In this document: positions 20,191 through 22,951 of the stretch, piece by piece
How positions within the stretch are numbered: position 1 is the first letter of the stretch
Layout of the letters: every line of letters starts with the position of its first letter
NCBI RefSeq assembly: GCF_000018945.1
Contig: NC_011978.1
Location: 124,001 to 188,000, forward strand
Direction of reading: 5' to 3'
DNA from: Thermotoga neapolitana DSM 4359
GTDB taxonomy: Bacteria > Thermotogota > Thermotogae > Thermotogales > Thermotogaceae
Length of the DNA: 64,000 bases
Position numbers and translations under genes: made by a program
Notes under the pieces: model-generated
What the model saw: only the letters and a program-made list of their open reading frames with translations
Databases searched by the model: none
Told to the model about the DNA's origin: nothing

Positions 20191-20213
20191 GGAAAACCTC
20201 ACACCACCTTTTT
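20181..20213. terminator. Bidirectional terminator shared by two convergent genes
   Basis: A perfect 12-base-pair stem (GGTGGTGTGAGG, AAAA loop, CCTCACACCACC) runs from 20181 to 20208, followed by TTTTT on the plus strand; on the minus strand the preceding TTTGAAACAA gives a weaker U-tract. The stop codons of both flanking genes fall inside the stem. Confidence 0.85.
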
Positions 20214-20393
20214 GAAATGCTCGATGGACCTGTCCCAGGTTCTTTCCGCGTCGTTCGGGAAATAGCACGCCGGAAGTTCTCCGTGCTGTCTGTGGTAGTG
20301 CATACACTCACAGCAGATACCCTTCCTCGGACAGCCAGGATATGAACAGTTGCAGTAGGAGAGGTTCCTTTCCTTGTTCGGACAGGCCTTCAC
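20199..20393 (-). CDS. Small cysteine-rich protein, DUF6485-like
   Basis: 64 residues with eight cysteines in [22 protein letters not shown] and ACYFP, plus conserved [11 protein letters not shown]. This pattern matches a small bacterial family of unknown function, probably zinc or iron-sulfur binding. The start is GTG 20393, overlapping the DUF4234-like stop (GTGA), with GGAGGTGAAACC upstream. Its last three codons and stop lie in the shared terminator stem. Confidence 0.8.
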
Positions 20394-21004
20394 GGTTTCA
20401 CCTCCAGATTCTTCATGGTTCTCTCGTCGGCATCGAGAAATTCGTTGATTTCCTTTGAAAGTTCAACGATCAGATACAGCCAGTACACGCCGAATGTGAT
20501 CAAAGTGAGCAGAAGAACAGTTAGAACGTTTCTTTCCTTTATGATGGGCCGAAACTCTACATCGAACAGCACACGGTAAAGACGTACTTTTTCCTCCTGA
20601 AGGTGCCTGGCTGCTTCGAAAAGAAAGTGCAGAAAGGTTACAAAGAACACCACCTGAAGAAGCGAAAACAGCCACACCTCCGGAAAAAGAAAGGAAAGAA
20701 ACCAGAAAAGAACGAAGGTGAAATACGTCCAGTTTGGAACCAGCAGTACTCCTTTCAGATCAAAACCGTGGCTTTCCGCCAGCCTTTGCGTTTTCAAAGC
20801 GTTTTCGTTCAGCAAGACCGTCCACTGCCTGTAGACAACAAAAAGAGAAAGAGAAGAAATCATCGAGAGAAAAAGTGCCGTGAGACCGAAGACGTGAACT
20901 TGCCTTCCGGCGAGGATTTCCCCGTAATATTTTACCAGCAGCACGGTGCTTGCGATCGAAAAGATCACACCTATCCAGGCAAGGTTCGTGCTCACCCTCT
21001 TCAA
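20390..21004 (-). CDS. DUF4234-like membrane protein
   Basis: 204 residues with about five hydrophobic helices (7-28, 38-57, 92-108, 112-130, 160-182). The C-terminal helix, [20 protein letters not shown], is the recognisable signature of DUF4234. No catalytic motif is visible. It is embedded in a four-gene operon with a C11 protease and a Cys-rich protein, each gene overlapping the next by a few bases. Confidence 0.7.
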
Positions 21005-22071
21005 TCTCTATCCCTCCAGTACGAAATGAGATCGTCCCAAAAACTGTCTGTTATGAAGTCACTCAGTGCGGAAAAATCATCCCAGTACTCAGGGTTTTTC
21101 ATGTTCTCCGGCAGATAGATGAGAAGATCTCTGTAGCCTTCCGGTGTTCCGTAGATTCTGGCAGAAACGATGGCACCATGAAGCTTTTCCCCATAATATC
21201 TGAGGGTATCGTCTGAAGACCCGTAGAGTGCTTCTGCAAAACTTCCAAGTTCTATGAGTTCGGTGAAAACACCTTCTGCTTTTCTTCTTTCAACGGTGAA
21301 ACTCCACGGCGAGATCTCCTTTTCCATCATGTACTGAGAAACTCTGTTCAGCCAGTACATGATTTCATCCAGCCTCGAGGTGTCCCAGACGCTCAAAGAA
21401 AAATCTTCCCCGTAACCCTCGTAATATTTTTGAACGACTCTGGAAAGAAGCGAAGGAAGATCTGTTACCCCCCTCAATGCGGTGTAGTCCCAGCCCTCTT
21501 CTGGAATCTCCTTGGAGGAGGTCACAATGTACTCTGCACAGTCTTTGAATTCCCACAGGATCTCGAAAGTTCCCATCAGACAGGCATCAAAGCCAAGTAT
21601 CGTGACAGGAGAGTTTTTTAAAACGTTCTTTATCTCTTTCACCGAGAGAAAATCTGAGTTTTTTACATCGTAAGCCACACCCTTCGTCTTCACCTGGGCT
21701 TCACCACGCCACCAGTCACCGTGATTCCAGATCACAAGGAAGGAAAGATCGTTTCCCCGGTACTCTTTCAGAAAGGAAGAAAGAGCCTCTGGATCACCGG
21801 AATCTATCTCGTTGAACGTTTCCAGAGGTACCAGATCACTTTCCACACGGTACAGGGTATCAGAAGCGGACGCATAATCGACCATAGCGAAAACTTCTAT
21901 CCAAGATGGGTTTTCTTTCATCTCCTCCAGGTCCTGAGATACGTATTTTTCCAGATCGTTGTCTGCGGCTATCCACACGAGGAAAGAGAGTGTGTGCCTT
22001 GGAACAAAAAAGCAGCCGGAGAGCAGAAGAAACAGACTACCTGTTAAGATAATCGAACCTTTTGCCTTGAT
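21001..22071 (-). CDS. Clostripain-family (C11) cysteine protease lipoprotein, non-canonical start
   Basis: The catalytic dyad is visible as WNHGDWW (His) and ILGFDACLMGTFE (Cys), the C11 signature. The first canonical start (GTG at 21978) falls within the mature domain. Reading on upstream in the same frame gives KAKGSIILTGSLFLLLSGCF, a textbook lipoprotein signal with lipobox LSGC, but no ATG, GTG or TTG before the upstream TAG. An ATC at 22069-22071 lies eight bases after AGGAG and is my best start, giving 356 residues; an ATT six codons later is the alternative. The protease would be anchored outside the inner membrane. If ATC is wrong, a nearby base error or very short form starting at 21978 must be assumed. 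Confidence 0.75.
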   Translation of the reverse strand: MKAKGSIILTGSLFLLLSGCFFVPRHTLSFLVWIAADNDLEKYVSQDLEEMKENPSWIEVFAMVDYASASDTLYRVESDLVPLETFNEIDSGDPEALSSFLKEYRGNDLSFLVIWNHGDWWRGEAQVKTKGVAYDVKNSDFLSVKEIKNVLKNSPVTILGFDACLMGTFEILWEFKDCAEYIVTSSKEIPEEGWDYTALRGVTDLPSLLSRVVQKYYEGYGEDFSLSVWDTSRLDEIMYWLNRVSQYMMEKEISPWSFTVERRKAEGVFTELIELGSFAEALYGSSDDTLRYYGEKLHGAIVSARIYGTPEGYRDLLIYLPENMKNPEYWDDFSALSDFITDSFWDDLISYWRDRD

Positions 22072-22951
22072 AAGTATCTCTCCTTTCGAGTTCCTTTTCT
22101 ATCATGTTGATGATCTCTATCTTGCTCTTTCCCCAGTTTGCAAATATCGTGCCTTCTTTCGGTGGATCGGCGACCAGTCTGTGAACGACCACCTTCGGTG
22201 ACAGGTACTCCAAGAAGGTGATCACCCTTTCTATGTACTCTTCGAGACTGCAGATCTCTATCTCTCCCTTCCGGTACATCTCAGCGAGTTTGGTTCCCTC
22301 TACCACGTAAAGGGAGTGAAGTTTCACACCGTCAACATCGAGAGCCGAAAGAAGTTTCGCCGTTTCCACCACATCTTCCATGTCGTCCCACGGCAGGTTC
22401 AGTATCACGTGGACCACAAGTTCCATTCCCCTTCTCTTCACCCTGACAGCAGCATCCACGAACTCTGCGAGTGTGTGTCCCCTGTTGATCTTTCTGAGGG
22501 TCCTGTAATTTGCCGTCTGAAGGCCCAGTTCAACGGAAACGTCCACTTTCCTTTTGAACTCCTCCAGAAGATCCAGCACTTCTTCGGGAACAAGATCGGG
22601 CCTTGTGGAGACGGAGAGCTGAACTATGCTGTCATCCACCAGGGCTTCCTCGTACTTTTTTCTGAGTTCATCGATGGAAGCGTACGTGTTGCTGAACGCC
22701 TGAAAGTAAGCGATGAACTTTCTGATTCCCCTCTTTTCATACCTTTCCTTCATTCTGAGCACCTGTTCTCTGATGGGTAGTTTCATGAGTGTGGTGAAAC
22801 CGCTTCCCGTGGCATCACAGTAGATACACCCTCCCGTTCCCTTCGTTCCATCCCTGTTGGGGCAGGAAAATCCCCCGAAGATGACTATTCTCTGAACCCT
22901 CTCGCCATACCTTTCCTTCAGATGATCGCTGAGTTTTCTGTAGCGCACCAT
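22037..22951 (-). CDS. Radical SAM protein, TIGR01212/YhcC family
   Basis: 304 residues. The cluster motif is CPNRDGTKGTGGCIYC (residues 30-45), the spaced form of CxxxCxxC typical of the YhcC-like group. Further landmarks are the SVELGLQTANYRTLRKINRG block and HVILNLPWDD. Substrate unknown; relatives have been linked to tRNA modification. It heads an operon with the C11 protease, overlapping the protease gene by about 35 bases. The ribosome site GAAGGAGGGAAT precedes ATG 22951. Confidence 0.9.
   Translation of the reverse strand: MVRYRKLSDHLKERYGERVQRIVIFGGFSCPNRDGTKGTGGCIYCDATGSGFTTLMKLPIREQVLRMKERYEKRGIRKFIAYFQAFSNTYASIDELRKKYEEALVDDSIVQLSVSTRPDLVPEEVLDLLEEFKRKVDVSVELGLQTANYRTLRKINRGHTLAEFVDAAVRVKRRGMELVVHVILNLPWDDMEDVVETAKLLSALDVDGVKLHSLYVVEGTKLAEMYRKGEIEICSLEEYIERVITFLEYLSPKVVVHRLVADPPKEGTIFANWGKSKIEIINMIEKELERRDTYQGKRFDYLNR

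Follow-up and report, generated by a model that had tools for sequence, protein, structure and literature searches.

A candidate AUC start codon for a predicted lipoprotein peptidase of Thermotoga, set within the end of mnmL

A gene of Thermotoga neapolitana DSM 4359 that encodes a predicted peptidase of the C11 (clostripain) family is likely to be translated, as a lipoprotein, from an AUC codon driven by a strong Shine-Dalgarno sequence. As an example of a start codon type that has seldom been documented, the ATC is a clean candidate, and to our knowledge few natural bacterial genes besides infC have a near-cognate start. Annotation programs search mainly for ATG, GTG and TTG, and annotation of that kind would here drop the signal peptide, so that a putative surface lipoprotein would pass for a cytosolic enzyme. 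The observation itself is real. Shown by the sequences are the anatomy of the locus, how it is conserved, the energies of its ribosome sites and a signal that evolves in the manner of protein. The case is directly testable in T. maritima or T. neapolitana.

The window, which is the whole stretch of 64,000 nucleotides that was analysed, covers positions 124001-188000 of the 1,884,562-bp chromosome, and 57 ORFs were taken in the scan of it. The peptidase gene lies on the minus strand at 21001..22071 and encodes 356 aa counted from the ATC. In the ORF listing its frame is open after a stop at 22101-22099 and runs to TGA at 21003-21001, and the earlier claim that its upstream part holds no ATG, GTG or TTG stands, the first canonical codon being a GTG at 21978, 40 codons in. 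Such a run has a chance of ~13% by codon counting alone, and the gap on its own is unremarkable. The Pfam profile PF03415 (Peptidase_C11) matches residues 32-352 with an E value of 7.4e-85 and 286 bits against a cut-off of 25.8, over profile positions 1-359 of 359, and in an alignment to PDB entries 6mzo and 6n9j His117 (NHG) and Cys164 (DAC) fall on the C11 catalytic dyad, the His and Cys of which are named in PMC4850288. By profile and dyad the protein is a predicted member of the C11 family; against the clostripain equivalog TIGR02806 it scores 36.9 bits, below the cut-off of 550. The two solved structures align from peptidase residue 29. AlphaFold gave a mean pLDDT of 36.8 for the single peptidase sequence and no usable model, and the argument made below from the first core strand is therefore based on the alignment to solved structures. 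A second C11 gene of the same genome also has a lipobox, and starts at TTG.

The proposed start codon is the ATC at 22069..22071 (minus strand). The first-pass annotation had given it a ribosome site at the right distance, and this is borne out: AAAGGAGA stands 7 nt ahead of it, the Shine-Dalgarno sequence CGAAAGGAGA occupying 22079..22088 on the same strand, with an energy of -12.9 kcal/mol for pairing with the 16S 3' tail, the measure used for all ribosome sites here. This beats the median of -11.6 kcal/mol for the best canonical starts of the 57 window ORFs, and no start candidate besides the ATC combines a strong site with the usual spacing. Furthermore, the peptidase is alone among the 57 ORFs in lacking a strong site at every canonical codon while having one at a near-cognate codon that precedes the first of these; in the other ORF that was flagged, at 13360-12098, the CTG concerned lies downstream of an ATG. 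An ATA at codon -2 was rejected as a start: it follows the ribosome site by only 1 nt and is missing from two of the relatives (G005 and G041).

The stretch ahead of the GTG at 21978 encodes I-KAKGSIILTGSLFLLLSGC, in frame with the C11 domain, and would be read from the ATC as M-KAKGSIILTGSLFLLLSG-C, a lipoprotein signal at 22012..22071 (minus strand) with the lipobox LSGC and Cys20 at 22014-22012. Judged by eye, KAKGSIILTGSLFLLLSGC has the positive n-region, hydrophobic core and lipobox ending in Cys of a lipoprotein signal, and the earlier claim of such a signal upstream of the first GTG is upheld. Codons 13-31, which lie past the mnmL end and before the first canonical codon, have a pN/pS of 0.31 in the three genomes without a canonical start (G000, G004 and G006) and 0.26 across the five intact copies of the genus; in single-pair tests among the three, p was 0.13, 0.14 and 0.0096, so that only one of the three is significant. 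The signal segment evolves as protein, which supports real use of the ATC start.

The seven genomes of the genus, together with G041 from a sister genus, all have the peptidase adjoining mnmL, and these eight form the comparison set. The ATC is found at the start site in every one of them, behind a ribosome site of -12.7 to -16.3 kcal/mol at a gap of 6-7 nt, which is a full AGGAGG in G005 and G041. The lipobox Cys and a K/R n-region are likewise found in all eight. A sequencing error at the ATC was considered and rejected, as codon and ribosome site recur in 8/8 genomes. With the ATC thus conserved and the sole candidate with a strong site, the comparison supports the earlier reading of it as the start. 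C11 matches occur in 22 of the 45 genomes of the order and adjoin mnmL, by coordinates, only in these eight; a search of other genome contigs for related loci gave one distant Bacteroides locus, and viral contigs gave none. As the eight genomes are one clade, the ribosome site may represent a single event.

The full combination of a near-cognate codon, a strong Shine-Dalgarno sequence and no canonical alternative is seen in three of the eight genomes (G000, G004 and G006), where no ATG, GTG or TTG stands between ribosome site and lipobox; in G006 a further TTG, at codon -5, precedes the ribosome site and has -5.7 kcal/mol at a 2-nt gap. In the other five (G001, G002, G003, G005 and G041, which include the two outer lineages) codon 6 is TTG, the three having TCG, and with this TTG five codons downstream of the ATC the start in these five is less certain; the TTG may serve as an additional start in them. 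In G000, G004 and G006 the gene body has a pN/pS of 0.22-0.24 and is under purifying selection, so that with TCG at codon 6 a noncanonical start would be required in these genomes if the signal is made. Two of the eight peptidase copies are broken, that of G002 (loci L007 and L009) by a frameshift and that of G003 (L015 and L019) by an inserted TnpB-like gene, presumably of IS200/IS605 type, and the peptidase is therefore not essential in every species.

A comparison of the bases at 22069-22071 among relatives had been proposed in the first-pass annotation, and although it returned ATC in 8/8, it is confounded by an overlap with mnmL that went unmentioned there. The tRNA-modification radical SAM gene mnmL/ytqA lies on the minus strand at 22037..22951 (TIGR01212, 438.6 bits against a cut-off of 180; Pfam Radical_SAM and Radical_SAM_C), and its 3' end contains the ribosome site of the peptidase and also its proposed start, covering at 22071-22037 the first 35 nt of the peptidase frame, from which its own differs by +1. 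The ATC spans the Tyr-Gln codons (TAT CAA) of the YQGK at the end of mnmL, and Gln-Gly-Lys is retained in mnmL copies of the order that are not followed by a peptidase. Conservation of the ATC alone consequently proves little, because the YQGK motif keeps most of it.

What the motif does not account for is better seen in the ribosome site and in one base of the Tyr codon. A strong site is present in 8/8 loci where the peptidase follows, versus 0/11 resolved mnmL loci without a neighbouring peptidase, which have -2.5 to -9.8 kcal/mol at the same place, none reaching -10; this count covers the 11 loci that could be resolved out of 22, and 13 further genomes with a match lie outside it. The Tyr codon of YQGK gives ATC if it is TAT, whereas TAC would give ACC, and it is TAT in 6/6 lineages, against TAC in at least five of the six at 9 of 10 other invariant Tyr sites of mnmL (G002 and G003, both TAT, are left out of the six as near-copies here of each other and of G001). 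In G041 it is the sole TAT among 14 Tyr codons. Part of this bias is due to context, because TAT is commoner for Tyr before Gln than overall (6/16 cases in the window versus 153/690). The distribution of the ribosome site, the fixed TAT and the protein-like evolution of the signal together support real use of the ATC. The sharing with Tyr-Gln also means that the codon is probably held at ATC: a change to ATG would turn the Gln of mnmL into Glu, one to ATA would turn it into Lys, and one to ATT would make a stop.

Other starts for the gene can be imagined, the most serious being that codon-6 TTG is ancestral and that the clade of G000, G004 and G006, having lost it to TCG, now uses a weak near-cognate start, perhaps the ATT of codon 7 or the ATC of codon 8. 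The occurrence of the TTG in G001, G002, G003, G005 and G041 speaks for this, as does the signal it would give in G041, which keeps an Arg and is acceptable. We nevertheless think it rather improbable: the TTG is inapplicable to G000, G004 and G006, its ribosome site is weak where it occurs (-2.8 to -3.1 kcal/mol), in four copies of the genus a start there would remove both basic residues and leave no K/R before the hydrophobic core, and the strong site 6-7 nt before the ATC is left unexplained in all eight genomes.

A start at the GTG of 21976..21978 (minus strand), with a cytosolic protein and a fortuitous signal, has in its favour that no canonical codon of the frame comes earlier; in the other two species that lack the codon-6 TTG an ATG stands two codons later. 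It would seem very improbable nonetheless, as the GTG is without a ribosome site (-1.5 kcal/mol, with -0.9 to -1.5 kcal/mol for the ATG or GTG codons at positions 32-34), is replaced by GTA, GTC, GTC and ATC among the four remaining intact copies of the genus, and cuts into the first core strand, a stretch that aligns to the start of the solved C11 structures; the lipobox and the residues before it, moreover, evolve as protein. Lastly, the 35-nt overlap and +1 difference in frame would permit a shift at the mnmL stop by ribosomes reading on into the peptidase to give a fusion, to which we attach almost no weight, because the codon ahead of the stop differs between copies (AGG, AAG, TGG, CGC) and no slippery motif is common to them; a lipobox would also serve no purpose in the middle of a protein, and the ribosome site would again go unexplained.

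The genus appears to have a further gene of this kind. In all seven genomes (loci L068-L074) infC has an ATC behind an AAGGAGG-like site of -12.9 to -14.3 kcal/mol, shortly before the conserved LPRNEQI (LLRNEQI in G006), and near the conserved N-terminus no canonical start in any of the seven has a good ribosome site. A GTG stands just upstream of the ribosome site in G004 and G000, and four codons past the ATC there is a GTG in G004, G000 and G005 and an ATG in G006; these alternative canonical codons have weaker sites, of -2.9 to -6.3 kcal/mol, and in G001 the first ATG, GTG or TTG of the frame comes 26 codons after the ATC. If infC does start at ATC, as the comparison suggests, the peptidase would be the second AUC gene of the genus.

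In the literature cited here (PMC13009471, PMC5472188, PMC9410913, PMC1780047, PMC1805508, PMC3636130, PMC2669436, PMC4850288, PMC11497404, PMC10931766), infC is reported to start at ATT in E. coli, ATC in Streptomyces and AUA in S. aureus, and IF3 to repress such starts. The infC genes (IF3; AUU, AUC or AUA) thus resemble the peptidase in having a near-cognate start on a strong Shine-Dalgarno sequence; infC is autoregulated, however, whereas the peptidase is not known to be connected with IF3 and has a start codon locked within a different gene. A noncanonical start that limits yield, as proposed here, is likewise described in that literature for pcnB of E. coli (AUU), sigR of Streptomyces (GTC), for which IF3 repression is shown, and cvfC1 (AUU) and ccpN (AUA) of S. 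aureus, but these encode regulators, a small protein or an RNA enzyme, whereas here the product is a predicted secreted peptidase and the evidence comparative. With the C11 peptidases clostripain and PmC11 the protein has in common its family and the aligned catalytic His and Cys, and PmC11 is also described with a predicted signal peptide; it differs from both in its predicted lipoprotein type and proposed noncanonical start, and lies far under the clostripain equivalog cut-off. In searches of open-licence papers, none of the listed titles or abstract openings reported an ATC start for the peptidase.

Taken as a mechanism, translation of the peptidase would be initiated at AUC 22071 with initiator fMet-tRNA, directed there by the strong Shine-Dalgarno sequence inside the end of mnmL, to give a lipoprotein precursor MKAKGSIILTGSLFLLLSG|C. 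This would be exported, receive its lipid on Cys20 and be anchored outside the membrane. Use of the AUC in the cell, export and lipidation are what we infer from the sequence comparisons, as is a yield that would be low or IF3-sensitive, as for infC; by analogy with known starts of this type, sensitivity to IF3 is probable. The start would be locked at ATC by the overlap with YQGK, and an overlapping gene may in this way fix a poor start codon across a whole genus. More tentatively, Thermotoga could have a small group of genes that start at AUC, with infC and the surface protease as the first two seen here; protease output would then follow the level of IF3, the protease start being locked by the YQGK overlap.

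Finally, the peptidase belongs to a run of four successive genes at 20199-22951 of the window that overlap by a few to 35 bases. Behind it on the minus strand lie a DUF4234 membrane protein gene (20390..21004), the TTG start of which overlaps the peptidase stop (TTGA) and which is probably in the same operon, and a gene for a small Cys-rich protein of 64 aa (20199..20393), the last of the run. Scans of promoters and RNA structure gave no signal above shuffles. The order mnmL, C11 peptidase, DUF4234, small Cys-rich protein is repeated in G041. In two further genomes, G031 and G030 (loci L061 and L062), the +1 frame past the mnmL motif stays open over 259 codons, an ATG coming directly after the stop of mnmL, and the gene there is unrelated to the peptidase.
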